From positions 947,147 through 1,011,146 of the forward strand of contig NZ_LR732817.1 in NCBI RefSeq assembly GCF_902506195.1: a stretch of 64,000 nt of DNA, given 5' to 3'. This DNA comes from Citricoccus sp. K5. Lineage in GTDB: Bacteria > Actinomycetota > Actinomycetes > Actinomycetales > Micrococcaceae. Below, in pieces: positions 42,281 to 64,000 of the stretch (positions are counted from its first letter, which is position 1; each line of letters starts with the position of its first letter). A model generated the notes under the pieces. That model did not search any database. It worked only from the letters and a program-made list of their open reading frames with translations, and was not told the DNA's origin. The position numbers were made by a program, and so were the translations under genes.

Positions 42281-42387
42281 CCGACTTGCGAGCGGTCGTT
42301 GACCCCCGATGCGACGGTCGCCGTTTTCCTTCGGTATCGTGGCCGGGCCGACTGCCACTGGCACCATCGACTTAGAGGACATACTTC
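42281..42387 (+). promoter_or_regulatory. Intergenic region upstream of wecC
   Basis: TATCGT at 42335-42340 is a possible -10 box and AGAGGA (42374-42379) is the ribosome-binding site of wecC. No dyad or -35 box of note was seen. Confidence 0.35.
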
Positions 42388-47442: not shown

Positions 47443-47444
47443 GC

Positions 47445-48638
47445 GTGCAACTGGAACTGCAGGGGTTCAACCCGGCCCCGGGATCACCCGTCCACGAGGC
47501 ACTGGCGGCCGTGCGCAATGGCACCGTCTCCCAGGGCGCCCCGCCGGCGCTGGTCGCCTACACCCCGGTGGCGCGGATGAATCCGTACCAGGCACTGACC
47601 TACCGCCACTTCGGGGACGAGGGCCTGGCGGTGTCCCCGGTCCTGGATCCCGAATCCTTCGAGTCCCTGCTGCCGCTGGCCGAGCACACCGGAGGCATAG
47701 TCCTGCACCTGCACTGGCTGAACACCGTGCTGCGCGGGGCCAAGAGCCGGGAGCAGGCGGAGGATCTCATGGACCGGTATCTGCTGAAGCTACGCCGCTT
47801 CCGGGAGGGCGGCGGCCGCGTGGTGTGGACGGTGCACAATCTGGCCCCCCATGACGCCGTGTATCTCAACGTCGAACGCGCCCTGCAGCAGGCGGTAGCC
47901 GACCTCGCTGACCTGGTGCACGTCATGAGCCCGGATACGCCCGGTCTGGTGGCCGATTTCCTCCAGCTGGATCCCGAGCGGGTGGTGGTCTCCCCGCATC
48001 CGAGCTACCTCGGCGCCTACCCTGATGTCGTCCTGCGGGACCAGGCCCGCACCATGCTGGGCCTGTCCGAGGACGAGATCGTGTACGTGGTGTTCGGTGC
48101 CATCAAGGCGTACAAGGGGATCGAGGTGCTGCTGGACGGCTTCGACCGTCTCCGGGAGACCGACGGTACCCCGCGGCGGTTGCTGATCGCCGGCGGACCG
48201 GACCGGGACCGTCGCACCCGCGCCCTGCTCCGCAGGCTGAGAATGCACCCGCAGGTGCTACTGCATGACGTCAAGGTCCCCAATGAGCAGGTGCAGTACC
48301 TGTTGAGGGCCGCGGACCTCATGGTGCTTCCCCACCAGGTGGCCCTGAACTCGGGGGCGGCTCTGCTGGGACCGACCTTCGATCTGCCCCTGGTGGCCAA
48401 CCGCGTCGGCGTCCTGCCCGGCACCCTGGGGGAGGGCTTCACCGAGTTCATTGACGGGGCCGCACCGGCCGCCGTCGCCGATGCCCTCGCCCGCGCCGAC
48501 CGGCTGGTGGCACCCGCGGCGCGCGCGGCGGCCCGGGACTTCGCCCGAGGGCACCATGCGGAGACGGTGAGCACGGACCTCGCCCGGCAGATCCGCCACC
48601 GGCTGGGCCTCCCCGATCCCGCCGCTGCCGAACGCTAG
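47445..48638 (+). CDS. Glycosyltransferase B1 of the duplicated module
   Basis: A 397-residue GT-B glycosyltransferase-like protein. Conserved segments are GGIVLHLHWLN, RVVWTVHNLAPHDAVYL, DLVHVMSPDTPGLVADFLQL, SHPSYLGAY-like (SPHPSYLGAYPD) and IVYVVFGAIKAYKGIEVLL. The start is decided by its paralogue: GTG 47445 gives QLELQGFNPAPGSPV, which aligns base for base with the N-terminus of the copy at 50659, while ATG 47439 is only one base from GAAGGAG. It is translationally coupled to the A1 gene. A -10 box and palindrome follow its stop. Confidence 0.85.
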   Translation: MQLELQGFNPAPGSPVHEALAAVRNGTVSQGAPPALVAYTPVARMNPYQALTYRHFGDEGLAVSPVLDPESFESLLPLAEHTGGIVLHLHWLNTVLRGAKSREQAEDLMDRYLLKLRRFREGGGRVVWTVHNLAPHDAVYLNVERALQQAVADLADLVHVMSPDTPGLVADFLQLDPERVVVSPHPSYLGAYPDVVLRDQARTMLGLSEDEIVYVVFGAIKAYKGIEVLLDGFDRLRETDGTPRRLLIAGGPDRDRRTRALLRRLRMHPQVLLHDVKVPNEQVQYLLRAADLMVLPHQVALNSGAALLGPTFDLPLVANRVGVLPGTLGEGFTEFIDGAAPAAVADALARADRLVAPAARAAARDFARGHHAETVSTDLARQIRHRLGLPDPAAAER

Positions 48639-48658
48639 AATCTGTCCTGGACAGGACA
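48636..48658 (+). promoter_or_regulatory. Internal promoter with palindromic operator between the two modules
   Basis: TAGAAT (48636-48641) overlaps the stop codon of the B1 gene and is followed immediately by the 16-bp palindrome TGTCCTGGACAGGACA (48643-48658, arms TGTCCTG and CAGGACA). The expected start site is inside the palindrome, a placement suited to repression of the second module. No -35 box is evident. Confidence 0.5.
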
Positions 48659-48699
48659 AAGAACCGTCGCGGCGCCGGCCGTGATGCCGAGGAACAGAC

Positions 48700-50655
48700 G
48701 TGACCGGGGAGCACACCATTCAGCACCACATCATCGACGACGAGCCCGAAAGGTCCCCGGAGGAGGAGAACCGGATCCTGCGCCAGGAACTCCGGTCCGT
48801 CCACGAGGAGCTGACCACACTGGCCGCAGAGCGCGACGCACTCGCGGCCCTCTGGGACGAACGCGATGCCCGTGCCGGACTCAAGGGCCGGGCGACCACA
48901 GCACGCCAGCAGCTGGGACGGCTGCGCCGCCGCCACCGTGAAGGAGAGGTCAATGCCCTCCAGGCCGGCCGGCAGCTGCTCCGGATCGGCTACGCCAGCA
49001 CCCTGCAGGGACCGGTGGAATGGACTTCCCGGTTCAAAGAGGCCCGGAGCCGCGCCATCACCACCCGGTACGAGGGGGACAAGCCCCTCGAACGGGCCAA
49101 GAAGCCGGCGGCCTATCAGCAGGGACTGCTGTGGAAGGACGTGCTGGAGCCGTCCCGGCGCACGGATCCGGCATTCCTGAAGTCGGCTCGCTTCCTCGCC
49201 ATCAAGACCGGAAACGTCAGCGAGGAGTTGAGGGTCGTGGCCGAGCTGGGGCCCGTGGACCACCAGATCCGGCTATCGATCCCGCAGGTCAATGGGAAGG
49301 CACGGGAACTGTCCGGATGGATCCCCCGCATACCCGGCCCGAGGACACCGATCAGACCGGTCTCCGACCGTCGGGTGATGCACCTCCTGAAGGAGTCCAG
49401 TCCTTACTTCTCCAATGGCTTCACCTCCCGAAGCCACCACAATCTCCTGGCCGAGCGGGAAGCGGGACTCGACCCGGTGGTGGTGACCGAGCTGGGATTC
49501 CCACGGTCGGTGACTGAAGACGAGTTCGCTCTCGTCGAGGAACTGGACGGGATCGCGCACCACCGGCTCGACACCGGGATCGATTACCGGAAAACCGCCT
49601 ACGATCGATGGCTTGAAGACTTTGCATGGATTGCCTATCAGAAGGTGCGCGAGCTGCGGCCGGCGGTGATCCACGTCTCCTCCGGGCGCCGGGGCTTCGA
49701 AACCGCTCTGGTCGCCCTTGCCCTGCGCGAGAAGACCGGCATCCCGGTGGTCTACGAGGTCCGGTCTTTTTTCGAAACCACCTGGACCGATGAGGCAGAG
49801 GTCGAGGAGACATCAGAGGTATACCGGCGTAGGTACGGAGTCGAGACGATGTGCATGTTGGAGGCCGATGCCGTCCTAACGCTCGGTACTGCCATGCGGG
49901 AGGAGATCATGTCCCGCGGGGTCCCCGCCGAGCGTATCGACATCGTGCCCAACGGTGTTTCCCTGGCGCACTTCCACTCAGGACCACGGAATGCGGAATT
50001 GGCCGCCGGATACGGCATCAAGGGACCGACCTTCGGCTATGTCTCGAACATGGACCACCGCCGTGAAGGCCAGGAAGTGCTCATCCGGGCCGCTTCCATC
50101 CTGAAGGAGCGTGGCGTTGACGCGCAGTGCGTCCTCGTCGGCGGCGGGGGCCGGCTAGAGGGTCTCCGAAAACTCACCCAGCTCTACGACGTGGTCGATC
50201 GCGTGCTGTTCACCGGACCGGTGGACCATATGGACATCGCCGATCACTACGGTCTCATTGACGTCTTCGTGGTGCCCCGCATCCACGAGCGCGCCGCCGA
50301 GTACGTTACTCCGCTCAAGCCCTTCGAAGCCATGGCCATGGAGCGACCCGTCGTCGTCAGCGACCTGCCCGCGCTCATCGAGATCGTCGATGCCCCGCAC
50401 CGGGGTAGGGTCTTCAAGGCTGCAGATGCGGCGGCTTTGGCCACCGTGATTCAGGGGTTGCTCTCGGACCAAGCTGAACGCCAGCAACTCGGCGCCGCGG
50501 GCCGGGCGTGGATCGAGGCTGAACGCCAGTGGAGCCACAACGGACAGCGATATCGGACAGTCTATGAGCGGGTAGTCCGACGTACCGCCGAAGACCGCGG
50601 GGACAAAGGCAACGAGCCCGGCGACCAGACCGCCGCCATTAGCATGGGAGCATAG
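48700..50655 (+). CDS. Glycosyltransferase A2 of the duplicated module
   Basis: Paralogue of the A1 product, 651 residues. The N-terminal 60 residues are acidic and helical (EEENRILRQELRSVHEELTT), then VMHLLKESSPYFSNGFTSR, HVSSGRRGFETALVALALRE, GIPVVYEVRSFFETTWT and KPFEAMAMERPVVVSDLPAL match A1 closely. The first 200 residues after the coiled coil are much less alike, suggesting that acceptor or partner binding has diverged. The GTG at 48700 follows GAGGAAC. It is followed three bases after its stop by the B2 gene. Codon use from about 49.4 kb on appears less GC-biased than in A1. Confidence 0.85.
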   Translation: MTGEHTIQHHIIDDEPERSPEEENRILRQELRSVHEELTTLAAERDALAALWDERDARAGLKGRATTARQQLGRLRRRHREGEVNALQAGRQLLRIGYASTLQGPVEWTSRFKEARSRAITTRYEGDKPLERAKKPAAYQQGLLWKDVLEPSRRTDPAFLKSARFLAIKTGNVSEELRVVAELGPVDHQIRLSIPQVNGKARELSGWIPRIPGPRTPIRPVSDRRVMHLLKESSPYFSNGFTSRSHHNLLAEREAGLDPVVVTELGFPRSVTEDEFALVEELDGIAHHRLDTGIDYRKTAYDRWLEDFAWIAYQKVRELRPAVIHVSSGRRGFETALVALALREKTGIPVVYEVRSFFETTWTDEAEVEETSEVYRRRYGVETMCMLEADAVLTLGTAMREEIMSRGVPAERIDIVPNGVSLAHFHSGPRNAELAAGYGIKGPTFGYVSNMDHRREGQEVLIRAASILKERGVDAQCVLVGGGGRLEGLRKLTQLYDVVDRVLFTGPVDHMDIADHYGLIDVFVVPRIHERAAEYVTPLKPFEAMAMERPVVVSDLPALIEIVDAPHRGRVFKAADAAALATVIQGLLSDQAERQQLGAAGRAWIEAERQWSHNGQRYRTVYERVVRRTAEDRGDKGNEPGDQTAAISMGA

Positions 50656-50658
50656 TAC

Positions 50659-51846
50659 GTGGAGCTGCAATTCAAGGGAATACTCCGTGATGAGGGATCG
50701 CCCGTCCACGAAGCCGTTGCCGCGGCGCGGTTTTACACCGTCCGCGACAACGACGAGCCATGGATCTACGGCTACGGGCCGGTGGTTCGGGGGAACCCCT
50801 ACCAGTCGCTGACCTACCGAGCCTTTGGCGATCACGGTCTGGCACTCGTCCCGGTGACCGATCCATGGGACTTCGGCTCACTTATTCACCTTCGCGGCCA
50901 GGCCCGCGGAATCATCTATCACCTTCACTGGCTGTCCTTCGTACATCAGGGCGCCGCATCACCGCGCAAGGCAGCCGAGCTGACCAATCGCTTCATGGCC
51001 GAGGTCCGAGCCTTCCGTGCCGCAGGCGGAAAGGTGATCTGGACCGTGCACAACATGGTGAGCCATGAGGCGCGGTTCCTGGAAGAGGAGCTTCGGCTGC
51101 AACAGGCCGTCGCGAATGAGGTCGACCTCATCCACGTCATGAGCGAAGACACGCCCGAACTTGTCCGTGAAACCCTTCAATTACCGCTGGACAAGGTCTT
51201 TCACGTCTCGCACCCTTCCTACCTTGGTGCCTATGAGGACTACCTGCCGGCCGACCACGCGAGACTCATGCTGGGGATCGAACCGGACGAGACTGTATAT
51301 GTGGCCCTTGGTGCGATCAAGGCCTACAAGGGCGTCGAGCGACTCCTCCAGGCCTTTAACTTGCTTCTGGACCGTTCGGACCGACCCCGGCGGCTCATCA
51401 TCGCCGGCGCGGCGGACAACGACCCAAGGTCCCTTGAACTCCGTCGGCAGCTTCGTATGCACCCTTATGTCCTCCTCCATGACCGGCGCGTAGCGGCAGA
51501 CCACGTCCAGCGTCTCCTGCGCGCTGCTGACCTGATGGTATTGCCCCATGAACGGGCCCTGAACTCGGGAGGCGCCCTTCTGGGACCCTCCTTCGGCCTC
51601 CCGGTTGTCGCCAGCAGCGTCGGAGTCCTGCCGCGAATACTGCCTCCGGAGTTTACGGAATTCTTCCCAGGGGACAGCCCGAAGGACGTTTCCGACGCCC
51701 TGGAACGCGCGGACCGGCTCGTTACCGTCGAGGCCCGTATCGCCGCCCGTTCGTTCGCCGAAGAACTCCACAGCGACGTCGTGTCAGCACAACTGGCGCA
51801 AGCAGTGCGGGATCGGCTTGGCCTTGACCACCACGAACCGGTCTGA
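50659..51846 (+). CDS. Glycosyltransferase B2 of the duplicated module
   Basis: Paralogue of the B1 product, 395 residues. VELQFKGILRDEGSPV aligns with the B1 start. GIIYHLHWLSF, KVIWTVHNMVSHEARFLEEE, DLIHVMSEDTPELVRETLQL, HPSYLGAYEDYL and VYVALGAIKAYKGVERLLQA are shared with small substitutions. The GTG at 50659 follows GGGAGC by nine bases. The polysaccharide pyruvyltransferase gene begins one base after the stop codon. Confidence 0.85.
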   Translation: MELQFKGILRDEGSPVHEAVAAARFYTVRDNDEPWIYGYGPVVRGNPYQSLTYRAFGDHGLALVPVTDPWDFGSLIHLRGQARGIIYHLHWLSFVHQGAASPRKAAELTNRFMAEVRAFRAAGGKVIWTVHNMVSHEARFLEEELRLQQAVANEVDLIHVMSEDTPELVRETLQLPLDKVFHVSHPSYLGAYEDYLPADHARLMLGIEPDETVYVALGAIKAYKGVERLLQAFNLLLDRSDRPRRLIIAGAADNDPRSLELRRQLRMHPYVLLHDRRVAADHVQRLLRAADLMVLPHERALNSGGALLGPSFGLPVVASSVGVLPRILPPEFTEFFPGDSPKDVSDALERADRLVTVEARIAARSFAEELHSDVVSAQLAQAVRDRLGLDHHEPV

Positions 51847-51847
51847 C

Positions 51848-53092
51848 GTGGCCCGACGCCTTCGCAACGTACCTTGGGATGGGTCCACGAGGCATCGCCC
51901 AAAGGTCGGCCTCATCGGGTTCTTCGGGTGGGGAAACTACGGAGACGAGCTGTTCCTGCAATTATGGCGCCGCGAGCTGTCCCCGTATTTCGACGTCGCT
52001 CCGGTTCACGAACTCCTCATACCGCCCTATGTGGTGGAGGACAGCGAGACGGTGGCCGCACGTCATGACGCCTTCGTCATCGGCGGCGGCGACCTCGTGA
52101 TTCCCAATGGCGTGTCCGGCCTCTACTGGAAGCCAGAATGGCTCACCCGAAAGGTCTACATCGTCGGAGTGGGTGTTGCCACGTGGGGCCACCGGCACCT
52201 GCCCGAGGTCATTGAGGAGATGGCGGCCTTCTTTCGTCACCCGAACATCCAGTACATCAGTGCCCGCGATGAGCCCTCTGCCGAGTGGATTCGCACCCAT
52301 CTCCGACCGTTGGTTCCCGTACTGGTGCATCCAGATCTCGTCTTCTGCCTCGATTTGCCTCCAGCCAGGGCGACGTCGTCACCAAACGGGAAGCGGCGGC
52401 TGGGCATCAGCGTGAGGCAAGGGCTGTACAACCGGAACAATGACTACGCAGCCCTGGACCGTTTCGTGGCAGACGCCCGGCAGGAGGGCTATGCGATCAG
52501 CCTGATCGAGCTGGCCAGCGGCCGCCAGCGACGCCGCGATGCCCGCGCCGTCCAGCAGCTGCCGTTCACTCCCGACGAGGTGATCGGTGGCTCCGATCTG
52601 GACACGGTTTCGGCCGCCATCGGCGGCCTCGACGCTCTGGTCAGCATGAAGTACCACGGACTGGTGGTGGCTCTCCGGTATGGCGTACCGGCCCTGGCAC
52701 TGACCCCGAACGCCAAAAACGTCAATCTGATGAATTCCATTGATCGGATGGACCTCGTGGGTGACATGGAAGGCGACATGGACCTGAGCCTGAAACTGGG
52801 CCGTCTGCGGGTACCAGTGGCCCGGGGGCGGGTCGACGCCCTAGGTCACGAGGCCCGGACGGCGTTGGATGCGCTCGTGCGCCAAATGCGGATCCAGCTG
52901 GATCCGATCCGGCTGGCGCCCCGGAGCGTACGCGAGTCCCGGCAATTTCTGCGTGAGGTCCTTCCCGACGCCGTCCGGTTGGCCCGCTCCCGGCGGCGCC
53001 GCGAGAAAGTCAGCGTGGAAGCCGACCGGGTCAATGAAGGGTCCGACGAGAATGCCGTGAGAGAATCATCGGTGGACCATCGCAATTCATGA
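51848..53092 (+). CDS. Polysaccharide pyruvyl transferase family protein
   Basis: Probably transfers a pyruvyl ketal from PEP to a polysaccharide sugar, giving it a negative charge. The 414-residue protein has the family start GLIGFFGWGNYGDELFLQLW near residue 20, AFVIGGGDLVIPNGVSG, and the C-terminal LVSMKYHGLVVALRYGVPAL, which matches the SxKxHG signature. Substrate is unknown. Pyruvylated wall polymers are known from several actinobacteria. The GTG at 51848 is chosen because it follows the B2 stop by one base; the frame is open upstream only by overlap with B2. A short Arg-rich C-terminal region precedes the stop. Confidence 0.85.
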   Translation: MARRLRNVPWDGSTRHRPKVGLIGFFGWGNYGDELFLQLWRRELSPYFDVAPVHELLIPPYVVEDSETVAARHDAFVIGGGDLVIPNGVSGLYWKPEWLTRKVYIVGVGVATWGHRHLPEVIEEMAAFFRHPNIQYISARDEPSAEWIRTHLRPLVPVLVHPDLVFCLDLPPARATSSPNGKRRLGISVRQGLYNRNNDYAALDRFVADARQEGYAISLIELASGRQRRRDARAVQQLPFTPDEVIGGSDLDTVSAAIGGLDALVSMKYHGLVVALRYGVPALALTPNAKNVNLMNSIDRMDLVGDMEGDMDLSLKLGRLRVPVARGRVDALGHEARTALDALVRQMRIQLDPIRLAPRSVRESRQFLREVLPDAVRLARSRRRREKVSVEADRVNEGSDENAVRESSVDHRNS

Positions 53093-53110
53093 GGAAGTTT
53101 GAGTCACCAT

Positions 53111-53644
53111 ATGTCGAAGACCGGGGGCACATTGCAGCGCCTTGAGAAGACCGCTTACCTTGGGGGGCTGGTCCTACTGGGCCTGCTCGGCCTTGCCGCA
53201 GCAGTCCTGGCGTTACTGTCGCTTTGGTCGGGCGCCGTGGCCTGCCTCAGCGTGGCGGTGGCTCTGCTCGCCCCGCTTCAGATAGTCCAGTCCCGTCGGC
53301 AGCTTCGCGCGACCAAAACCGCCCTCCGCCAGACCGCTCGCTCCGTTCCTACGCGATCAAGTCCATCGGCTCCGGCGCAGGATAACCGCGAGGTGGTGGC
53401 ACTGTTGTCCCGTAACAACCGTCACTTGGTGTCTCTCGGCGAACGCCTGGAAGGGCTGGGCACCGGCTCCGGGGACGGTTCCCTGGACCATGACCGGCTG
53501 GCGGCAGAAGTTGCCGCTACGCGTGCTGAGCTCGCTGGGCTGCGTGCCGAGCAGGAATCTTTAAGATCTTCGCTGGACGGTGGCCTGTCGGCCGTCCGGG
53601 CCGACCTTGGGGCCCTGACCCAATTGGCGCCGAGAGGGAAGTAG
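53111..53644 (+). CDS. Small membrane protein with C-terminal coiled coil, unknown function
   Basis: Not recognised as a known family. The 177-residue protein has two adjacent hydrophobic helices at about residues 15-37 and 42-63 (GLVLLGLLGLAAAVLALLSL is part of the first), a basic linker (QSRRQLRATKTALRQTARS) and a helical coiled-coil tail from about residue 100 (RLAAEVAATRAELAGLRAEQ). The topology suggests a membrane scaffold that positions neighbouring cytoplasmic glycosyltransferases; this is inference. ATG 53111 is preferred over TTG 53099, which is almost in contact with GAGGAAG. The next gene starts 11 bp later. Confidence 0.65.
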   Translation: MSKTGGTLQRLEKTAYLGGLVLLGLLGLAAAVLALLSLWSGAVACLSVAVALLAPLQIVQSRRQLRATKTALRQTARSVPTRSSPSAPAQDNREVVALLSRNNRHLVSLGERLEGLGTGSGDGSLDHDRLAAEVAATRAELAGLRAEQESLRSSLDGGLSAVRADLGALTQLAPRGK

Positions 53645-53655
53645 TCCACGCGCTG

Positions 53656-55518
53656 ATGCAGGAATACTCCGGTCCCCTTCCCGACACCCCACCAGCGACG
53701 ATGCTTCTTCCTCTCCTTGGTCCGCCTTCAGTGGTGGCCGGCTTTGCGGACGCTGTCGTGACAGCTGGAGCGGACGACATCTCAGACCCGGCGTTGCTGG
53801 ACCATGTCCTGTGGCCCCAGGAGATCCTGGACGAGGTGCCGTCGTTGGCCGACCAACGCACTGAGGTGCGGCGTCTCAGCCAAATCATCACGCTGTCGGA
53901 TCGAGGTCTGCGTGTGGACCTGAGACCCTCGCCGGATGTCGACGTCTCCGTCGAGTCGGTCTTCCCGACGCCTGCCACATCAGTCTCCGTCCATCCGGCG
54001 GGGGTGCATTTCGCCGGTCATTCCGCGGCAGACGATGCACGGCGTTATCTTCAGTTCCTCGACGAATGGGCGACTATCCGCAACGGGCGGCCACCGGCGG
54101 TCGTCCGGTTGGCGAATCTGGTTGCGGAGGACGTGTACCGCGGCCTTGCGGAGGCCGCTTCGGGGAATATGGAATATCGGCGCGACCTCATGGACCGGCT
54201 GGCCGTTTCCGGACGCGCCGCCGATATTCGCTGGGACCGTTTCCGGACCGGCGCCAGCGGTCTGGCGATCCTCTATAACTTTGCGCCATTTGCCGACACC
54301 GGGTCCACAGTCGCCTCCAAGCGGCTGCGGGACTTCGCCCGGACCATGGACGTCATCTCGTGCTCCTGGGTCAACCACAAGAAGGTCGACCCGACGGTCG
54401 GTATCATTTCCCGTCCCTACATCGGCCGTCAGAGTTATCTAGACCTGCGGCCCTCCTGGGCGTCCTGGGAAGCCTACGAGGAATTCTGCCGCGAGGGCAT
54501 GGACCAGATTGCGTCCTGGAAGGCCGAAGGGCAGAACTACGATTTCCTATACAGCCGGGCGAACTGGGCGTCCTCGCACTACCTGGCAACTGCCTACAAG
54601 CAGCAAAACCCCGACATCGAGTGGGTGGCCGAGTTCTCAGATCCCCTTTCCCTTGACGTCGAGGGTAACCGACGCGGTGATGCCCTGGACCGAAACAACG
54701 CCTTCCTCGCCGACCTCGTGGCCCCAGTGGAGGCGGAGTATGGACGGATCCCAGACGACCACTTCACCATTTTCGGACTCGCGGAGATCCTGCCCTATGC
54801 GTTGGCGGAGACGGTCCTGTTCACGAACGAGCACCAAATGGCATCCATGCTCGAACACGTCTACAGTCCCGCCTTGGTGGAGCGGGTCCGACGCCATGCC
54901 GAGGTTTCCAACCACCCGACCCTGCCACCGGTCTACTATTCGGCCCGAACCGTGGACTACAAGGTGGATCCGACCAAACTGAACCTGGCCTACTTCGGTG
55001 AGTTCTACGCCACCAGGGGCATCACGGACCTGACCGTTGCCCTCAAGATGCTGTCACCCGAGATGCGCGACCATGTGCACCTGCACGTCTTCACGAACTT
55101 CGTACCCGAGGGAGGACTGGCGTCCAAACCGGCGGGATTCTCCCAGAAGTCGTTCAAAGCGCTGGTCAAACGCGCCCAGGACGGTGTGGGTGCTCACGGC
55201 ATCGAGCACCTGGTGACCTTCAATGCCTCGTTGCCGTTCCTCGAGTTTCTGGGGGTCACGGCCGCGTTCGACTATCTGATAGTGAACGACGCGCACTCGG
55301 GCCCCGACCACCAGGTCAATCCGTTTCTCCCCTCGAAGTGGAGCGACTATGCGGGGTCGGAGGCCGCCGCATGGGCCCTGGTGGAGGACGGAAGCATCCT
55401 GAGTGGCAAACCGGCCCGGGTGAAGACCCCGGTCGGCGACCCCAATGCGGCCCGGGAGATGCTGTGGAAATTGATTGAGGACAAAAAGAACAGGGTGGAA
55501 GGCCGAATCGATGACTGA
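53656..55518 (+). CDS. Divergent GT-B glycosyltransferase-like protein
   Basis: A 620-residue protein without a clear match to a defined family. The C-terminal half looks like a GT-B donor domain: LNLAYFGEFYATRGITDLTV near residue 438 resembles the start of GT4 C-terminal domains, and GIEHLVTFNASLPFLEFLGV and DYLIVNDAHSGPDHQVNPFL follow. The middle holds FLYSRANWASSHYLATAYKQ and EWVAEFSDPLSLDVEGNRRG, like acceptor domains of GT4 enzymes. A classical EX7E motif is not obvious. The ATG is at 53656. It overlaps the next gene by eight bases and belongs to the polysaccharide operon. Confidence 0.65.
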   Translation: MQEYSGPLPDTPPATMLLPLLGPPSVVAGFADAVVTAGADDISDPALLDHVLWPQEILDEVPSLADQRTEVRRLSQIITLSDRGLRVDLRPSPDVDVSVESVFPTPATSVSVHPAGVHFAGHSAADDARRYLQFLDEWATIRNGRPPAVVRLANLVAEDVYRGLAEAASGNMEYRRDLMDRLAVSGRAADIRWDRFRTGASGLAILYNFAPFADTGSTVASKRLRDFARTMDVISCSWVNHKKVDPTVGIISRPYIGRQSYLDLRPSWASWEAYEEFCREGMDQIASWKAEGQNYDFLYSRANWASSHYLATAYKQQNPDIEWVAEFSDPLSLDVEGNRRGDALDRNNAFLADLVAPVEAEYGRIPDDHFTIFGLAEILPYALAETVLFTNEHQMASMLEHVYSPALVERVRRHAEVSNHPTLPPVYYSARTVDYKVDPTKLNLAYFGEFYATRGITDLTVALKMLSPEMRDHVHLHVFTNFVPEGGLASKPAGFSQKSFKALVKRAQDGVGAHGIEHLVTFNASLPFLEFLGVTAAFDYLIVNDAHSGPDHQVNPFLPSKWSDYAGSEAAAWALVEDGSILSGKPARVKTPVGDPNAAREMLWKLIEDKKNRVEGRIDD

Positions 55519-56083
55519 GCCCGTACCGGGGGATGTCCGCCCCTTGCTGGAACAATTGGGGCGTGCCGGTACCCCGTCCGTCAACACCACCGCGTATGAG
55601 GTGGACCTGGTGGCCATGGCCGGCTTCGACCGCGTGGTGCCGAGCGACGACGGCGAAACGCGAGACCCATTGCTCGTGGTGGGCAGCAGGGAGCTGTTGC
55701 GACGCATCCGGAGACATCATCCGATTGTCGTTGCGGCGCCCGGGATGACCGCGGCCCAGCAGGAGAGCCATGGGTTCCTGCGCACCGTGATCGACGCGGC
55801 CGCCATGCTCACCGGGCCGTGGGCCGGGGCGGAATCAGGACCCCGACGGTACCTTGCTGACGAACTCAAGGCCCTGGTCCTGGCCAATCACGAGTCTCGG
55901 GTGACCACCTACGTGATCCCTGACGTTCCCGGGCTGGGGCGGCCGGAAGCCGTGGCCAGGTTGATCGACGGTGCCACGTTCATCGTGACGTCCACCACAG
56001 CGGACCCGGACACGGAGGGCAGCCCCCGGTCGCAGCTGCTGGCGACGATGATGGATTACGCGAATCGTGGAGGACAGGACTAG
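55511..56083 (+). CDS. Hypothetical protein of the polysaccharide operon
   Basis: A 190-residue soluble protein that I do not recognise. It has no signal peptide or membrane segment. ADELKALVLANHESRVTTYV and IVTSTTADPDTEG lie in the second half, and the first part (VDLVAMAGFDRVVPSDDGET) suggests alternating strands and helices. The ATG at 55511 overlaps the upstream gene by eight bases, and the following gene begins immediately after its stop. The tight coupling with two glycosyltransferase-like genes suggests a shared complex. Confidence 0.65.
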   Translation: MTEPVPGDVRPLLEQLGRAGTPSVNTTAYEVDLVAMAGFDRVVPSDDGETRDPLLVVGSRELLRRIRRHHPIVVAAPGMTAAQQESHGFLRTVIDAAAMLTGPWAGAESGPRRYLADELKALVLANHESRVTTYVIPDVPGLGRPEAVARLIDGATFIVTSTTADPDTEGSPRSQLLATMMDYANRGGQD

Positions 56084-59000
56084 ATGGTGCAGGCCAACCC
56101 GTTCAAGGACCGACTGCTGGTATGGGCGGTTCCCGGTCGGGACGACTCCGCGGAACCCGTGGAGGCGCCCTACTGGGTGGATCAGGCCGCCTCCGCGATG
56201 CGGGAGGCCGGTGCCCGGGTGGACGTCGTCCCCGTGGAGACCAGGGCCATGTCAGTCCCGATGGTCGGCGCCCTGGCGACCGCCGAAGTGGTGCTGGCCA
56301 CCAGCATGGCGGTCGGCCAGGTCCTCGTGGAGTCCGGCTTCGAACGGCACCGGCTGTGGACCTTCCTTCAGGGTGCCCCGGGTCGCCCTTTCGCCATCAC
56401 GGAGTCCAACGAAGACGACATCCGAGCTGCAGTGTCGTCATCCCGCAAGGTGATCGTCTTCGACGAAGACGCCCGCAGCACGGTAGAGGGAGCCGTTTGG
56501 GACTCCGCCATGAACGTTCTCGTCTTCCCGATCGCGGGAAGGGGCCCGCTCCCGGAGTTTCGTGCCGCTGCAGGGGGACCGCCCGCACTTGTCATCCAAC
56601 TGGAACTCACCGGACCGCTCGGCCTGGCTGCCATCCGAAGGCATGCCGATGCGATTCGGCCACGACGCGACCCGCAGCCGGTTTTCCTCGTTGGCGGTCC
56701 GGACCTGCAATCCACCTTGCGCACCCATCCGGTCCACCGTGAATTCGCTGCCATCCCCGGAGCCCGCGCCGTCCTCCCCGACGACCGGTCCCTGGCCGAG
56801 GCCTTGCATGGCGTACGGCCGCTGGGATTCGTGCCCGGCGAGGACTCCGGCAAGGGCCATCGCGTCGAAGCCATCCGGACCTGGTTCGAAGCCAGAGGCA
56901 TCGAGCTCTTTGCCGAGCACGGCGTCTTGCCTGCCCTGCCGCGTTACGCTTCAACGCCGCGCTGGGGTGCCGGGACGCTGACGGCCGATCTGGACCGGGC
57001 GGACCGCGGAGCCGGCGGGCGGCAGACTGCTGACGACGTGCCGCCGCCGGCTGCTCCGGACACCGGGCCCGCTTCCGGTTTTGCCGGGGCCGTTGCGGAG
57101 CTTTTCGCCCCATATCTGCCGGACTATGCCGCGGTGCCCCGTCGGCCCGAAAAGCTCAAGGTGCTCCTGGTCGGAGCGGATTTCAAGTTCGCCGGGGATA
57201 TGGTCGAAGCCCTATCCATGCGCGAAGACATCGATTTGCGGGTGGATCGTTGGGAATTCAACGGGAAGCCGCAACCGGAGGCCAGCCGCCCACTGCTGGA
57301 CTGGGCCGAGGTGGTCCTGTGCGAATTCGCCAGCGCCAATGCGGTTTGGTACAGCCACAACGTGCTCCCGAACCAACGGCTCATTCTGCATTTGCACGGC
57401 TACGAACTTCGACAGCCGCCCATCCACGACATCGAGATCGGTGCCGTTGAGACGGTCGTGTTCGCCTCGGACTTCTATCGGCAGAAGGCCCTTGACATAA
57501 CCGGATGGCCACGGGAACGTACTTCGGTGATTGCCAATACCGTCCAGTCGTCGGACCTGGCCCGGCCCAAGCTCCGCGATGCACGTTTTCATCTCGGCAT
57601 GGCGGGTTTTATCCCCGAGCTCAAGCGCCCGGACCGCGCGCTTGACCTTCTCGAGGAACTCCTGGCACACGACGACCGATACACCCTGCACCTGCGCGGT
57701 CACCTGCCGTGGAACTACCCCTACGTGTGGAAGAATCTCGTCCGCCGGGAATCGTATCTGGCCTTCTTCGAGCGGCTGCAGCGTAATCCCGGGCTCCGGC
57801 AGGCCGTGGTGTTCGATTCTTTCGGACCGGACATGGGGAACTGGTTCCGCGGTATTGGCTGGATGCTCTCGACGAGCACCCGGGAAACCTTCCATCTGGC
57901 GCCGGCCGAGGGGATGGCTTCCGGCGCGGTGCCCGTGGTCTGGCGTCGCGAGGGCTCAGATGAGATCTTCCCTGAGCGGTGGAACGTGGACGATGCCGCG
58001 CAGGCCGCTGAGTTGATACTCAACGCCAACGAGGATCCCGCCCGCTACGACGTGCACGGGTTTGAGGCCGCGTCGTTCGCGCGTCGCTACGATGCACGTA
58101 CGGTGGTGCACGATTGGTTGAACCGGGTACTGGGGCCCACCGAAGCCTCTGGACGCTCCGGGCCAGCGGCCCAACTGGTGGAGGTGGACCCCTCGACGGG
58201 CCTCACAGGGACATGGGCCGAGGCCGAAACTTTGGTGGCAGCGGACCAGCACGTCCGTGCCCAGGCACTCATTGATCCGACCGTGGACCACCCATGGCAG
58301 CAGACATCACGGCAGCGACGGCTCGCCGGCGAGGTCTTTGGTGTTCCGGCCCTGCGCCAACGCGTGCATCACCTTCTGAGCCGTCGTGTATACCCGCCCC
58401 TGCGCCCGGGTGGAGTATCCGCACTGGTGGTGTATGGACCAGGTCTTTCAGCTAGGGACGCCGTCAGCGCCCTTGCCGTCGGCCCGCTGTCCACGATCCA
58501 CTTGCCTGCGGCCTGGGATCAGGCGAATTCCGTACTCGATGCCTGGGTGGACCGGATCAGCCGGCGTGCGCTACAGGACGGTGCGGGGTCAGTACACGCG
58601 GTTGGCGATGAACTCACGGCCGTCGCGGTGGAGGTGGCCGCTCAACGGCTGGGACTGCAGTCCACATGGGATGTCACCGAGAGGTCCGGTGCGGCCGACC
58701 GCATTGCGGCCGCGGCGGCCGACCCCTATCGCGCCTCCGACCGTGGCATTCTGTCCCTGATGGCAGCCCGCCATGCCGGGGTGGTCCACGGGGCGCAGAC
58801 CCAGGGCCTGGACGTCAGATCGCCCATCGAGGACAGAATCGCGCGCCCCCTGCTGATGCGGAGGCCGGTGGTCGGCCTCATCGGCGGCAACCTCGACCTG
58901 ACGCCCTTGGCCAGGCCCTTGCGTGGGGTTAAACTGGACCGTCAGTCGTCTCTGCTGCGGATCCGCGAGGGACTTGACGCCCTCGTGATCAGCGGCCGCG

Positions 59001-59350
59001 CGGCCAGGCATGCGGAATGGAACACGATTGTGTCCGGTTCGGATACGGTCCTCGACCTGGCCATCACGGAGGCTCGGCGCTACAACGTCCCGATTGGGTT
59101 CCTCGACGACGATTCGGCCGACCTGGAACCAGTGTTGCGTTATGCGCGACGGGTTGATGTGGTCCTCGCCCCTGGGGCGGAGGACGTGGACAGGCTGCAT
59201 GATCGACGGATCGTCCCGACCCAGGTGGCCAGCGCCTTGCCGAAGGCGCAGCCCGATGGCGTCGGACCGGCGTCGTCGCTTCTGAACAGAGCCGAAGCGC
59301 TCGAATTGATCTTTCGAATGTTGCGCATCAACCAGCAGCTCCCATCCTGA
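56084..59350 (+). CDS. Large multidomain glycosyltransferase (1088 residues)
   Basis: Three regions can be distinguished. Residues 1-330 form an N-terminal Rossmann-like part (LLVWAVPGRDDSAEPVEAPY onward). Residues about 357-680 are a GT-B enzyme starting KLKVLLVGADFKFAGDMVEA, with LILHLHGYELRQPP, TSVIANTVQSSDLARP and an intact EX7E donor motif, ETFHLAPAE, near residue 603. Residues 700-1088 form a further domain with no recognised motif (DQHVRAQALIDPTVDHPWQQ and later alternating hydrophobic stretches). The length is far above that of an ordinary GT4. The ATG at 56084 has GGAGGAC ten bases upstream. An IS5-family remnant begins within a few bases of the stop, so the C-terminus may have been altered. 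Confidence 0.75.
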   Translation: MVQANPFKDRLLVWAVPGRDDSAEPVEAPYWVDQAASAMREAGARVDVVPVETRAMSVPMVGALATAEVVLATSMAVGQVLVESGFERHRLWTFLQGAPGRPFAITESNEDDIRAAVSSSRKVIVFDEDARSTVEGAVWDSAMNVLVFPIAGRGPLPEFRAAAGGPPALVIQLELTGPLGLAAIRRHADAIRPRRDPQPVFLVGGPDLQSTLRTHPVHREFAAIPGARAVLPDDRSLAEALHGVRPLGFVPGEDSGKGHRVEAIRTWFEARGIELFAEHGVLPALPRYASTPRWGAGTLTADLDRADRGAGGRQTADDVPPPAAPDTGPASGFAGAVAELFAPYLPDYAAVPRRPEKLKVLLVGADFKFAGDMVEALSMREDIDLRVDRWEFNGKPQPEASRPLLDWAEVVLCEFASANAVWYSHNVLPNQRLILHLHGYELRQPPIHDIEIGAVETVVFASDFYRQKALDITGWPRERTSVIANTVQSSDLARPKLRDARFHLGMAGFIPELKRPDRALDLLEELLAHDDRYTLHLRGHLPWNYPYVWKNLVRRESYLAFFERLQRNPGLRQAVVFDSFGPDMGNWFRGIGWMLSTSTRETFHLAPAEGMASGAVPVVWRREGSDEIFPERWNVDDAAQAAELILNANEDPARYDVHGFEAASFARRYDARTVVHDWLNRVLGPTEASGRSGPAAQLVEVDPSTGLTGTWAEAETLVAADQHVRAQALIDPTVDHPWQQTSRQRRLAGEVFGVPALRQRVHHLLSRRVYPPLRPGGVSALVVYGPGLSARDAVSALAVGPLSTIHLPAAWDQANSVLDAWVDRISRRALQDGAGSVHAVGDELTAVAVEVAAQRLGLQSTWDVTERSGAADRIAAAAADPYRASDRGILSLMAARHAGVVHGAQTQGLDVRSPIEDRIARPLLMRRPVVGLIGGNLDLTPLARPLRGVKLDRQSSLLRIREGLDALVISGRAARHAEWNTIVSGSDTVLDLAITEARRYNVPIGFLDDDSADLEPVLRYARRVDVVLAPGAEDVDRLHDRRIVPTQVASALPKAQPDGVGPASSLLNRAEALELIFRMLRINQQLPS

Positions 59351-59730: not shown

Positions 59731-59851
59731 GGTATGTAGTGACCCGTCCGGCGTGGAGGGGTTGCGGGCCGGGGCCTCGCTCACAGAGATTCGTGGGTTA
59801 CCGGACAAGAAGCCCCTTGCCCGGCCTTGCCGACAGTTGTGGGAGGCCCCG
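59731..59851 (+). ncRNA. Candidate bridge RNA region of the IS110-family element
   Basis: The 121 bp before the transposase can fold: GGCCGGG (around 59766) pairs with CCCGGCC (around 59819), enclosing a roughly 45-nt region, and a nearby CCGG-rich segment gives smaller stems. IS110-group elements make a structured bridge RNA from this position. The assignment rests on position and folding only; target- and donor-binding loops were not identified. Confidence 0.3.
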
Positions 59852-60943
59852 GTGTTTACCGAGCGTACGAGTGTCGGGCTCGATGTGCACGCACGATCCG
59901 TCGCCGCGGCGGCGATCGATGGCGTCACGGGAGAGCTCATCCAGACCAGACTGACCCCGTCACATGAGCACATCCTGTCCTGGCTGGGCGATCTGCCTGG
60001 CCCGGTGGCGGTGGCCTACGAGGCCGGCCCCACCGGATTCGGCCTGTACCGGGCCCTGACCGAGGCCGGGATCCGGTGTGAGGTCGTGGCCCCGTCCAAG
60101 CTCCAGCGGCCGGCCGGAGACCGGATCAAGACCGATGCGAAGGACGCGGTGCACCTGGCCAGGCTGCTGCGCCTGGACGAGGTGACCTCGGTGGCGGTGC
60201 CCTCCGCGGATCAGGAGTCAGCCCGGGACTTGGTCCGGGCTCGGGAAGACTGCCGGGGCGATTTGATGCGGGCCCGGCACCGGCTCTCGAAGCTGCTGCT
60301 GCGCCAGGGCCTGGTCTATAACGGCGGCCAGGCCTGGACCGGTGCCCACCACACGTGGCTGGTGCACGAGGCCCGGCCTCGGCTGACACAGCGGCCGACC
60401 CTGATGGCGTTCGAATCCGACTACGAGACCGTGATGGCCACTCTGGCCCGCCGTGACCGGCTCGATGCGGCCATCGGGGCCATGGCCGCGGACTCGGAGT
60501 TCACGGATGTGGTGCGCTGGCTGGGGTGCTTGCGCGGGGTCTCTACCCTGACCGGGTTCGGTCTTGCGGTGGAGATCGGTGACTGGCATCGGTTCACCGG
60601 CAACACCATCGGTTCCTTCGTTGGACTGGTCCCCTCGGAACACTCATCTGGTGCCTCCCGGGCCCAGGGGCCGATCACGAAAGCCGGTAACACCCACGCC
60701 CGTCGCCTGCTGGTCGAGGCCGCCTGGCACCACCGCCCCCAATACCGGATCGGCAAAACCATGCAGGACCGATGGAATCTCGCCCCGGCCCAGGCCCGGC
60801 TCCGTGGTGATGCCGGCAACCGGCGCCTACATCAGCGCTGGGTCCGGTTCCTTCAGCGCAATAAGCGGGGCACCGTGGCTAATGTGGCCATCGCCCGGGA
60901 ACTGGCCGGCGGGTGCTGGTCTCTGGCCGTGATGCAGGAGTAA
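59852..60943 (+). CDS. IS110-family transposase (DEDD recombinase)
   Basis: A 363-residue protein with the RuvC-like DEDD catalytic region near the N-terminus (VGLDVHARSVAAAAIDG, AYEAGPTGFGLYRAL and DRIKTDAKDAVHLARLLRLD), a helical linker, and the C-terminal Transposase_20 domain (GVSTLTGFGLAVEIGDWHRF, FVGLVPSEHSSGASRAQG). The conserved Ser/Gly segment likely contains the catalytic serine. The reading frame is uninterrupted, so the element may be active. GTG 59852 is chosen: GGGAGG lies five bases upstream. The frame is open as far as 59753, but that region belongs to the non-coding left end. Confidence 0.88.
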   Translation: MFTERTSVGLDVHARSVAAAAIDGVTGELIQTRLTPSHEHILSWLGDLPGPVAVAYEAGPTGFGLYRALTEAGIRCEVVAPSKLQRPAGDRIKTDAKDAVHLARLLRLDEVTSVAVPSADQESARDLVRAREDCRGDLMRARHRLSKLLLRQGLVYNGGQAWTGAHHTWLVHEARPRLTQRPTLMAFESDYETVMATLARRDRLDAAIGAMAADSEFTDVVRWLGCLRGVSTLTGFGLAVEIGDWHRFTGNTIGSFVGLVPSEHSSGASRAQGPITKAGNTHARRLLVEAAWHHRPQYRIGKTMQDRWNLAPAQARLRGDAGNRRLHQRWVRFLQRNKRGTVANVAIARELAGGCWSLAVMQE

Positions 60944-60955
60944 CACCCCATAGAC

Positions 60956-61236
60956 CGCTTCGTCCTGCGACGATGGATGGTGGCAGCGCGAGGAGCGACC
61001 CGCGAGACAACTATGGGCAACCGGACGCCATGCCCGGTGACGCCCGACTCTAGACACGCGGTCCTGCTCCTGCCGAACACCCCGTCTTGCGGTAGCCAAC
61101 CCGCGCATATCAGTCTGACCGCGCGTCGACTGTCGACACGCTCACCAGACCGCCGCCAGGACGAAGCAAGAGGCGCCCGCCCCATGATCAGGGACGGGCG
61201 CCTCGCCCTGCTTCTTGACAGGAAACCACTACATAT
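60956..61236. other. Non-coding stretch between the IS110 and IS481 elements
   Basis: No convincing gene is seen on either strand. It contains TAGAC again at about 61052, a GTCGACTGTCGAC motif at about 61126, and the large hairpin described separately. It may be the original DNA downstream of wecB, or further insertion-sequence debris. Confidence 0.5.
61163..61214. terminator. Long GC-rich hairpin, possible bidirectional terminator
   Basis: A stem with perfect GAGGCGCCCG/CGGGCGCCTC arms is extended by inner CCC/GGG and, after a small bulge, outer GAAGCA/TGCTTC arms; the loop is ATGATCA. It sits about 20 bp beyond the IS481 element on the side away from wecB, so before insertion it would have followed wecB closely. 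No long T tract follows. Confidence 0.55.
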
Positions 61237-62130
61237 CAGATGTACCCAGCCATCACGTTGGTGACAGTCGGCTGATGGGCGGGGCCCGCCGAGTGCACTG
61301 TGGCCTCGTTCAGTGTTGTAGTGCTCCACCTTGCCGTTCTGCCATGGGCAGTGCGGTCGGATGAACTTGTGTCGGGCCCCGATCTCCGCGATCGCAGCGC
61401 GTACATCGGTCGAGCGCCGGTATGACCAGTGGTTGTCGGTGATGACTCGCTCGATGCTGGCGATGCCATGGACGGCGAAGTACGCCGCGGCACGCAGGAT
61501 GAACGCCCCGCAGGTGGCGCCCTTCTCGTCGGGCAGCACTTCCGAGTAGGCCAGGCGGGAGTGGTCATCGACCATGGAGTGCACGAAGTCATAGCCGGAC
61601 CGCGCCCTCTTCTGGGCCGAGGTCCTGCCCATCATGCGGCCATGGGCCCGCCAACCATCCCCGTCCGGGACCTTCCCGAGCTTCTTCACGTCCACGTGCA
61701 CCAGCTCTCCCGGGCGGGCGCGTTCGTAGCGCACCACGGTGGTCTTCGAGGCCCGAATGGGCTCCCCGGTCATCGGGTCGCAGTCCCGCAGGTACGGCAC
61801 CTGGTGCCGGACCAGGATGCGAGAGATCGTCCGGGCCGGCACCCCGGTCAGCCGGGCCAGCACCGCTGGTCCGGCCCGGTGCTCCCACCGGGCGGACACG
61901 ACCCGATTCTCGGTCTGGCCGGGGGTCTTGGTCGGCATCGTGTGCGGCCTGGAGGACCGGTCTTGAAGGCCGACCTCGCCCTCGGTGGCATAGCGGCCGA
62001 TCCACTTGTACACGCACTTGCGGGAAACCCCCATCGCGGCGGCGATATGCGGGGGTTTCCACCCGTCCTCGTGGCGCTGGATGATCAATCGGCGGCCATG
62101 GACGGTCAGCCGGGCATTACGGTGGGACAC
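61236..62130 (-). pseudogene. IS481-family transposase, broken
   Basis: Minus-strand remnant of an IS481 transposase starting at GTG 62130 (SHRNARLTVHGRRLI) with GGAGG five bases upstream. The helix-turn-helix (GVSRKCVYKWIGRYATEGEV), HVDVKKLG, DDHSRLAYSEVLPDEKG, VITDNHWSYRRS and CPWQNGKVE of the DDE region are present. Then KVE joins directly to HYNTERGHSALGG: about 30 residues normally found between these are missing, an in-frame deletion. A frameshift after SALGG moves the natural end (PTVTNVMAGYI, stop at 61236) into another frame. The unshifted frame runs on to 60853 through unrelated DNA. Confidence 0.8.
61237..61268. repeat. IS481 terminal inverted repeat, transposase 3' side
   Basis: The repeat begins CAGATGTACCCAGCCATCAC and pairs with the repeat at 62209-62240 (25 of 32 identical). 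It also codes for the last residues of the transposase (VTNVMAGYI). Confidence 0.8.
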
Positions 62131-62208
62131 GGGAGCCTCCTGTGTGCTGGTGCAGCCTTCGACAAGCCACACCTCACCGGGAGGCTCCCCTCACGTTAAC
62201 CCCGAAAC

Positions 62209-62240
62209 ACCGTCACCAACCTCATGGCCGGATACACCTA
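62209..62240. repeat. IS481 terminal inverted repeat, wecB side
   Basis: Read on the minus strand it begins TAGGTGTATCCGGCCATGAG. The first three bases, TAG, are the stop codon of wecB. Partner repeat at 61237-61268. Confidence 0.8.
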
Positions 62241-63398
62241 GAGGGTGAAGTCCTCGATCCGTTCCCCGACCCCGAGCAGTTGGGCGATGGCGGCTGCAGT
62301 GCGGCCGGCGGCACGGCCGTCTCCGTAGGGGTTGACGGCGTGGGCCATGGTCTCATAGGCCGTGCGGTTGGTCAGTAGGGCGGTGGTCTCTGCGACGAGC
62401 CGTTCCTCGTCGGTACCGATCAGCTTCACGGTCCCGGCTGTCACGGCTTCGGGGCGTTCCGTGTTCTCCCGCATGACGAGGACCGGCTTGCCGAGGGACG
62501 GTGCCTCCTCCTGTACTCCGCCGGAGTCGGACAGGACCACATCGGAAATGTTCATCAGGTGGGTGAACTCCCCGTAGGCCAGAGGCTCGGTGACCAGCAC
62601 GTTGTCCAGACCCTGCAGTGCGGGCAGGACGGCCTCGCGCACCACCGGATTGCGGTGGGCCGGGAGCACGATGGTCAGTCCGGGGATGCCTTCGGCCAGG
62701 CGGGCCAGGGCGCGGCCGACGCCACGCATGGCATCGCCCTGGTTTTCGCGGCGGTGGGTGGTCACCAGTAGCACTTGGCCGGAACCGGAGGTCGTGCGCT
62801 CGGCCAGGTCCTGCAGGGCGGGGTCCGTGAAGGGCACCCGCTTCTCCACGGTCGTGAGCAAGGCGTCGATGACGGTGTTGCCCGTGACGACGATGTCATC
62901 TGGATTGACGTTTTCGGCCACGAGGTTGGCGCGGGACGTCGAGGTGGGGGCCAGGTGCAGGGAGGAGATCTGGGAGGTGATCTTGCGGTTCGCCTCCTCC
63001 GGGAAGGGGGAGAACAGGTTGTGCGAGCGCAGTCCGGCCTCGGCGTGGACGACCGGAACCCCCAGGTAGAAGGCGGCGATGGCGCCGGCCGTCGAGGTCG
63101 TCGTGTCGCCCTGGACTACCACGGCATCAGGCTTCTGCTCCTGGATCAGGGTGTCCAGCCCGGCGAGGGTGCGCCCCATGATTCCGTTGAGAGTCTGGTT
63201 CGGGAGCATGATGTTCAGATCGGCATCCGGAACGATGCCGAAAAGCTCATTGACCTGGTCGAGCATCTCACGGTGCTGGCCGGTGACGGTGGTGAAGCAC
63301 TCGAACCGGTCGTCGTCCTGCAATGCCCGGACGATGGGGGCCATCTTGATGGCTTCGGGCCGTGTGCCGTAGATCGGCATGATCTTCTGGGGGGTCAT
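62238..63398 (-). CDS. wecB: UDP-N-acetylglucosamine 2-epimerase (non-hydrolysing)
   Basis: Converts UDP-GlcNAc to UDP-ManNAc, the substrate of WecC at 42388. The 386-residue GT-B-fold enzyme has IYGTRPEAIKMAPIVRAL near the N-terminus, VQGDTTTSTAGAIAAFYLGV, HAEAGLRSHNLFSPFPEE, VTTHRRENQGDAMRGV and SDSGGVQEEAPSLGKPVLVM with RENTERPEAV. The ATG at 63398 follows GAGGA by ten bases. The stop codon TAG is the first three bases of the IS481 terminal repeat, so the last residues (RIEDFTL) mark the insertion point and the original end may have been longer. Length is close to the family norm, so activity is probably kept. Confidence 0.94.
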   Translation of the reverse strand: MTPQKIMPIYGTRPEAIKMAPIVRALQDDDRFECFTTVTGQHREMLDQVNELFGIVPDADLNIMLPNQTLNGIMGRTLAGLDTLIQEQKPDAVVVQGDTTTSTAGAIAAFYLGVPVVHAEAGLRSHNLFSPFPEEANRKITSQISSLHLAPTSTSRANLVAENVNPDDIVVTGNTVIDALLTTVEKRVPFTDPALQDLAERTTSGSGQVLLVTTHRRENQGDAMRGVGRALARLAEGIPGLTIVLPAHRNPVVREAVLPALQGLDNVLVTEPLAYGEFTHLMNISDVVLSDSGGVQEEAPSLGKPVLVMRENTERPEAVTAGTVKLIGTDEERLVAETTALLTNRTAYETMAHAVNPYGDGRAAGRTAAAIAQLLGVGERIEDFTL

Positions 63399-63535: not shown

Positions 63536-63612
63536 GATCGGCAGTAATAACGGCTCCGGCCCGCGTCCCATGGCGGCCGCCCGGACACCTGAAGCGAACT
63601 GGAGTAACTTTG

Positions 63613-64000
63613 TTGAACAGCACTGGGCGGGACGCCGTCGCGGACGGCGAACCGTCGGTCCCCGGTGCGCTTTCGGTGCACATGTCCGGCCTGAAGAGGG
63701 TCGGAGCCCGTCCAACACTGGGCAACTACCTGGCCCGGCTGTGGGGTGTGCGGCATTTCATCGCCTATGAAGCCAAGGTTTCCGTCGGCGTCGAGAACCG
63801 TGAGCATCTACTCGGCAACATCTGGCTCGTTTTGACCCCGCTGCTCAACGGTGCAACTTACTTCCTGATCTTCGGCCTGTTGCTGGGCACCTCCCGCGGC
63901 GTGGAGAATTTCCTTGCCTATCTCACGGTTGGCGTGTTCATGTTCACGTTCACCAGCCGGACAGTGATGCAGGGCGCGAATTCCCTGACGCGCAAGAACA
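63613..64000 (+). CDS. ABC-2 type polysaccharide export permease, 3' truncated by the window
   Basis: Only the first 129 residues are present. After a hydrophilic start comes YLARLWGVRHFIAYEAKVSV, a typical amphipathic entry of Wzm/TagG-type permeases, then the helix segments NIWLVLTPLLNGATYFLIFG and a following FLAYLTVGVFMFTF. Such permeases move lipid-linked polysaccharide across the membrane with a Wzt/TagH ATPase, probably encoded just beyond the window. TTG 63613 is the suggested start (GGAG ten bases upstream). ATG 63682 (MSGLKRVGARP) is an alternative. Divergent from wecB, so part of the same wall-polymer locus. Confidence 0.75.
   Translation, partial: MNSTGRDAVADGEPSVPGALSVHMSGLKRVGARPTLGNYLARLWGVRHFIAYEAKVSVGVENREHLLGNIWLVLTPLLNGATYFLIFGLLLGTSRGVENFLAYLTVGVFMFTFTSRTVMQGANSLTRKN

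Follow-up and report, generated by a model that had tools for sequence, protein, structure and literature searches.

What do four tightly coupled genes, two of them encoding proteins of families that go unrecognised by Pfam and NCBIfam, contribute to a wall-polymer operon? The question is raised by a 64,000-nucleotide stretch of the 3.88 Mb genome of Citricoccus sp. K5 (Micrococcaceae; contig NZ_LR732817.1, positions 947,147 to 1,011,146; the whole stretch is called the window here), where the genes, named A, B, C and D, follow one another at 53111-59350 on the + strand. The best explanation, which is given slightly more than an even chance, is that A-D work as a glycan-extension complex tethered to the membrane, where it would assemble a teichuronic-acid-like wall polymer containing N-acetylmannosaminuronic acid (ManNAcA) at the cytoplasmic face. 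The membrane-tethered polymerase complex proposed in the original prediction is thereby kept as the best reading, in which we infer the physical complex, the sugar donors, the acceptor, the processivity or polymerase activity and the roles of A and C. No earlier report of these genes was found in the open-access literature. All four open reading frames (ORFs) were confirmed at these positions:

53111-53644, + strand: gene A, small membrane protein of 177 amino acids with an N-terminal hydrophobic hairpin and a helical cytoplasmic tail (ORF and hydropathy)
53656-55518, + strand: gene B, predicted GT-B glycosyltransferase (GT) of 620 amino acids from an undescribed family (AlphaFold model and structure comparison)
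55511-56083, + strand: gene C, alpha/beta protein of 190 amino acids, partner of D-type GTs (model, hhalign and neighbourhood)
56084-59350, + strand: gene D, multidomain GT of 1088 amino acids (ORF and alignment)

The genes had been described as coupled by overlaps or gaps of 11 bp or less, and this is what was found: a gap of 11 bp between A and B, an overlap of 8 bp between B and C, and a gap of 0 bp between C and D. Where translation of A and of B begins is uncertain: A has an upstream TTG, and for B the gene caller favoured a GTG at 53731.

The A-B-C-D order and the tight spacing are kept in eight genomes from five genera and two families. These are the window, a sister Citricoccus (L038 with L056; numbers of this kind are our handles for other loci, and those with G for genomes), three species of one genus (L046, L047 and L050), two further genera (L048 and L049) and a member of a different family (L070). 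The flanking genes vary among these genomes, while a gene for uridine diphosphate (UDP)-N-acetylmannosamine (ManNAc) dehydrogenase, for WecB, or for both lies near the module in all six places read far enough (L046 and L048 excluded). The fixed order in eight genomes together with the adjoining genes for UDP-ManNAc dehydrogenase and UDP-N-acetylglucosamine (GlcNAc) epimerase shows that the module is real. Recurrent co-occurrence of this kind was what the original prediction had named as support for a defined system, an idea that is upheld.

The B proteins of all eight modules constitute one clade (support 100/99), separate from their fused relatives. The module is found at the same place in the window genome and in the sister Citricoccus, and comparison of the two gives ratios of nonsynonymous to synonymous substitution rates of 0.23 for A, 0.19 for B, 0.22 for C, 0.17 for most of D and 0.30 for the C-terminus of D. 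All four genes are under purifying selection. Matches of B type were present in 18 of 395 genomes of the family, in 8 of 347 of the order and in 1 of 396 of the phylum, the last being the window itself; the system is patchy and mainly found in Micrococcaceae.

The earlier description of B as a divergent GT-B-like protein agrees with its AlphaFold model (predicted local distance difference test, pLDDT, 80.6; predicted template modelling score, pTM, 0.81). Two features of B are of importance here:

54247-55500, + strand: GT-B core of B, residues 198-615 (model; conserved in 17 relatives)
55318-55359, + strand: motif NPFLPSKWSDYAGS of B, residues 555-568 (alignment; consensus NP[YF]LPSKxSDYxG[SA] in nearly all 17 relatives)

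The core shows a GT-B fold with Z 23.5 over 322 residues to sucrose-phosphate synthase (6kih), 23.0 to HepE (4xsu) and 22.9 to MshA, and Foldseek E-values down to 2e-10. No sequence family was found for B: there was no Pfam or NCBIfam match up to E 0.1 (PF00534 and PF13692 included) and no sequence match in the PDB, and a profile search with B gave spurious matches only. Comparison by hhalign with D or a neighbouring GT4 enzyme gave no signal, so the relation of B is one of fold only. B is described as having a GT4-like fold and is not filed in GT4 because no GT4 or GT1 Pfam profile matches it. Judged by its model, B belongs among the GT-B glycosyltransferases, in a family not described before.

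Protein D is built up by several domains:

56084-57133, + strand: N-terminal eroded GT-B module of D, approximately residues 1-350 (hhalign 98.1%, E 7e-14 to intact modules)
57140-58153, + strand: GT4-like catalytic core of D, residues 353-690 (Pfam Glyco_trans_1_4 9e-5, below cutoff in the window)
57884-57910, + strand: E-x7-E motif ETFHLAPAE of D, residues 601-609 (kept in 14 of 14 D homologues inspected as E-S/T-F-H-x-A-x-x-E)
58181-59347, + strand: C-terminal CgeB-like half domain of D (hhalign 93.8%, E 1.8e-7 to the C-terminus of L040)

The original prediction had placed an intact EX7E core between two uncharacterised domains. The core stands, while the flanks are not wholly uncharacterised, one being an eroded GT-B module and the other akin to the first half of CgeB-type GTs. 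The core reaches 23.2 bits against a Glyco_trans_1_4 cutoff of 27 in the window and 37 against 27 in the homologue from Micrococcus luteus; a sequence search of D against solved structures gave no match. Homologous to the N-terminal domain is the first GT module of D-like enzymes with two modules, which occur in other Micrococcaceae; in several of these enzymes that module carries PF13524. A donor-site stretch around LEISTKVLE is present in all five two-module proteins compared and lost in all seven module D proteins compared while the E-x7-E core is intact, which leaves D with a single live GT module beside the eroded one. Retention of the anomeric configuration and a UDP-sugar donor would be expected of B and D if they are GT4-type enzymes.

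In six relatives, D ends in an extra GT2 domain; the two of these that were scanned with Pfam gave 7e-17 and 9e-17. The same GT2 subtype, helical extension included, makes up the N-terminal half of B-family proteins in other genomes; the two match at 26-38% over up to about 290 amino acids with E-values down to 1e-48, whereas an unrelated GT2 gives 1e-5 to 1e-11. One lineage thus has this domain as part of D and another has it as part of B, which is good circumstantial evidence for joint action of the two proteins. The D protein of Citricoccus lacks the GT2 domain, and no close displaced copy was found in the Citricoccus genome (best E 1.5e-8, compared with 1e-59 to 1e-149 in the module relatives).

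Protein C was earlier called an unrecognised protein of 190 residues, which still describes it, the only Pfam match being a sub-threshold one to Glyco_trans_4_4 (E 0.009). A profile search with C gave spurious matches only, with E above 0.2, and the model shows an alpha/beta protein of moderate confidence (pLDDT 71) with generic nearest folds (Z under 8). C is related to C-like proteins encoded just upstream of D-core enzymes (hhalign 95%, E 3.8e-8). The D core adjoins C in 8 of 8 modules and a C-like gene in 12 of 12 further loci tested, and a genome search with the outside C-like group independently recovered the module C genes in G178 and G222. C is accordingly not specific to the four-gene module and is a constant partner of D-type enzymes, M. 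luteus included. One guess is that C is a catalytically dead GT half, for which the Pfam match and hhalign matches of 16% or lower to the C-terminus of D are weak evidence; no GT was among the Foldseek or VIA structure matches listed for C. In L042 (15580-16581), an A-plus-C-like arrangement occurs within a single protein of 333 amino acids, which has a membrane hairpin at its N-terminus as well as a C-like domain; its gene lies immediately before that of a two-module D-like enzyme, in the same genus.

Protein A was predicted to be a two-helix, coiled-coil membrane protein. Hydropathy agrees with a two-helix hairpin at approximately residues 14-59 followed by a helical tail, whereas the coiled coil is weakly supported, with p=0.026 in an a/d heptad test in the window and no significance in the sister. 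Small hairpin proteins fill the slot of A in 8 of 8 modules with poor sequence conservation. The original prediction had suggested the small protein as the scaffold. If there is a scaffold or tether, the membrane hairpin makes A the more likely tether, with C as a partner dedicated to D.

Other assignments for A were rejected. As a SLATT or Pycsar effector membrane protein it reaches 16 bits against a SLATT_1 cutoff of 41 (best relative 19.2 against 26.3), and as an Rv2743c protein it is also below cutoff. A is not significantly similar to the membrane hairpin of the C-like protein in L042, and the apparent A-C fusion there is a resemblance in topology only. In L074 (7106-10009), the gene directly before that of a GT2-B fusion encodes a membrane protein of two helices and a long helical tail, which gives an A-B-like order without C and D. 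Small helical proteins also occur beside large or fused GTs in L075 (9238-9633), L039 (9459-9857), L041 (6253-6972), L053 (7487-8335), L054 (11601-12368) and L055 (10827-11597). Several of them share S-x-(L/M)GK(L/I)...W at the C-terminus, with basic residues after it, a motif that is possibly an amphipathic membrane tail.

The module belongs to a same-strand run of genes at 39767-59350 encoding a LytR-CpsA-Psr (LCP) ligase, a GT, UDP-ManNAc dehydrogenase, five more GT4-type enzymes (genes starting at 43635, 45427, 47445, 48700 and 50659), a pyruvyl transferase and finally A-D. Past D come two transposase genes of the insertion sequence (IS) families IS110 and IS481, then WecB on the opposite strand and an ATP-binding cassette (ABC) permease and ATPase:

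39767-41044, + strand: LCP ligase (PF03816 3e-39)
42388-43638, + strand: UDP-N-acetyl-D-mannosamine dehydrogenase of WecC type, in the same operon (NF008286, 573 bits against a cutoff of 459)
51818-53092, + strand: polysaccharide pyruvyl transferase, directly upstream of A (PF04230 7e-17)
62238-63398, - strand: UDP-GlcNAc 2-epimerase, WecB (TIGR00236, 442 bits against a cutoff of 210)
63610-64000, + strand: ABC exporter permease, running beyond the window, followed by its ATPase (ABC2_membrane 4e-12 and ABC_tran 9e-18 in L078)

Both UDP-ManNAcA enzymes score above the curated cutoffs, which argues that the operon makes UDP-ManNAcA. No flippase or Wzy-type gene was recognised at 39767-59350, and no GT2 gene or Pfam-recognised flippase or polymerase gene was found in the operon.

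The four genes had been placed at the end of the operon. This holds in the window, where the IS110 and IS481 copies come next, but not in the sister Citricoccus (L056), where GT and pyruvyl transferase genes run on past D. The two transposase genes lie at 59753-62172, between D and WecB, and the same interval in the sister contains a GT pair, a pyruvyl transferase and a GSCFA-family gene; the tail of the operon in the window was probably lost or displaced with the IS insertion. At 45427-51846, the GT genes 45427/48700 and 47445/50659 resemble a tandem duplication of a two-gene unit, of which the sister has one more copy downstream of D. A 714-amino-acid protein without Pfam match adjoins the ABC exporter just beyond the window (L078, 7744-9888).

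In ABC-exported O-polysaccharides, polymerase modules on separate or fused proteins assemble at the membrane (PMC11231755). By analogy with these, a tether-and-assembly arrangement is the most likely working model for A-D. A would anchor the complex by its membrane hairpin, B would add one sugar and the GT4 module of D another, while the eroded N-terminal module of D might have a role in structure or acceptor binding and C might act as a dedicated accessory of D. The product would be exported by the downstream ABC transporter and then attached to peptidoglycan by the LCP ligase. This explanation draws on the fixed gene order, the single clade of B, the purifying selection, the GT-B fold of B, the E-x7-E motif of D, the GT2 domain shared by the B and D families, the constant pairing of C and D, the UDP-ManNAcA, ABC and LCP genes, and the lack of a GT2 gene and of any Pfam-recognised flippase or polymerase gene in the operon. 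Several points weigh against such a complex. The sequence of A is hardly conserved and the case for its coiled coil is weak, the model of C shows a generic alpha/beta fold only, and the D of Citricoccus lacks the GT2 domain by which B and D are linked, with no close copy in the genome, so the local Citricoccus complex may differ from that of its relatives. The backbone could instead be made by the five ordinary GT4 genes of the same operon, and interaction, activity and polymer composition are all predicted from genes.

This last possibility leads to the main rival explanation, in which B and D are ordinary sequential GTs that add single side-branch or linkage-unit sugars, and the genes travel together as one structural variant without any complex or polymerase. 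The other GT4 enzymes of the operon could then be the backbone enzymes, and the patchiness of the module, with B-type matches in so few genomes of the family, is typical of variable surface-sugar loci. However, the fixed order includes A and C, which do not look enzymatic, C is constantly paired with D, and GT2 is common to the B and D families. Purely sequential GTs are for these reasons regarded as rather unlikely.

A further explanation comes from M. luteus. The catalase encoded in G147 is identical over 502 residues to PDB 1gwe, the catalase of Micrococcus lysodeikticus (= luteus), and G147 is therefore assigned to M. luteus. Its locus (L105 and L106; G147:C1:945000-984800) is syntenic with the window, with about sixteen orthologues in order, followed by LCP, a GT, a C-like protein of 231 amino acids, a D-like protein of 731 amino acids, UDP-ManNAc dehydrogenase, further GTs, an ABC transporter and WecB. 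The UDP-ManNAc dehydrogenase and WecB are orthologues of the window enzymes at 78.5% and 75.7%, and the D homologue has a mass of 80.4 kDa. The teichuronic acid of M. luteus is a polymer of ManNAcA and glucose made by a 440 kDa membrane complex, teichuronic acid synthetase (TUAS), with subunits of 52.5 and 54 kDa (PMC3005890). The purification paper from 2010 names no genes (PMC3005890), and teichuronic acids are poorly characterised genetically (PMC13274773). The C-D pair is a candidate, from gene content, for part of this pathway in M. luteus. It is unlikely, although worth stating, that C-D is the teichuronic acid synthase core of Micrococcaceae including M. luteus, with D as a two-module GT-B polymerase and C as an obligate non-catalytic partner. 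The four-gene module would then be derived, with one D module dead and the second activity supplied by B, a new GT family tethered by A. The M. luteus locus, a candidate for teichuronic acid, also includes a 507-amino-acid GT of 56.9 kDa, a size near that of a TUAS subunit.

The module might also control chain length or cap the chain, as a terminator complex for a polymer that the GT4 enzymes and pyruvyl transferase encoded upstream would make. Complexes that include a membrane-associated protein with a coiled coil commonly cap the glycans that leave by ABC export (PMC11231755), and A has a membrane hairpin and a helical tail. Against this, the evidence for a coiled coil is weak, and neither Pfam nor NCBIfam showed a kinase, a methyltransferase or another domain for capping in A-D, although types that they do not recognise could escape; a terminator is considered quite improbable. 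Least probable is that A-B and C-D are two functionally unlinked enzyme pairs joined by selection for one locus. In favour of this, C-D occurs without B in many Micrococcaceae and B-family proteins without D. Against it, GT2 is found on B in some lineages and on D in others, and where the N-terminal module of D is eroded B is present, as if it had taken that module's place. Homologues found singly in unrelated contexts had been named as evidence against a defined system. This is partly borne out, for C-D pairs and B-family proteins do occur without the other genes, but they lie in the same kind of locus and not in unrelated contexts.

The glycan-extension complex remains the preferred explanation. 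The module offers concrete gene candidates in M. luteus, a harmless laboratory organism. From it come two protein families, one of B-type GTs and one of C-type partners, and an example of how GT modules die, move and are replaced from one subunit to another.

Comparisons with known enzymes show that B has the same fold as MshA, HepE and sucrose-phosphate synthase (Z about 23) without detectable sequence relation, and that NPxLPSKxSDYxGS at its donor site replaces the E-x7-E of GT4-type GT-B enzymes. The flanking domains of D have profile similarity to CgeB-type proteins carrying PF13524 (Glyco_trans_1_2) but no PF13524 match of their own, and the N-terminal one lacks the donor-site motif. TUAS of M. 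luteus (PMC3005890) is similar in its multi-subunit, membrane-bound synthesis and in the genes for a ManNAcA polymer, and a C-D pair is found in the ManNAcA locus of M. luteus. However, its subunits of approximately 52.5 and 54 kDa are not matched by B (620 amino acids), C (190), D (1088) or the 80.4 kDa homologue of D, and the pair is therefore not filed as TUAS. Alternating transfer of glucose and ManNAcA is a further mark of TUAS. Klebsiella O4/O7 and WbdA/WbdD of Escherichia coli O9a (PMC11231755) share with the module the distribution of GT modules over several or fused polypeptides, a membrane-associated helical protein, cytoplasmic assembly and ABC export. They differ in that the locus described here is a Gram-positive wall locus with an LCP ligase and other GT families, no recognised capping domain and weak evidence for a coiled-coil ruler. 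As in these systems, an ABC exporter belongs to the locus, with ABC2_membrane and ABC_tran genes directly downstream.

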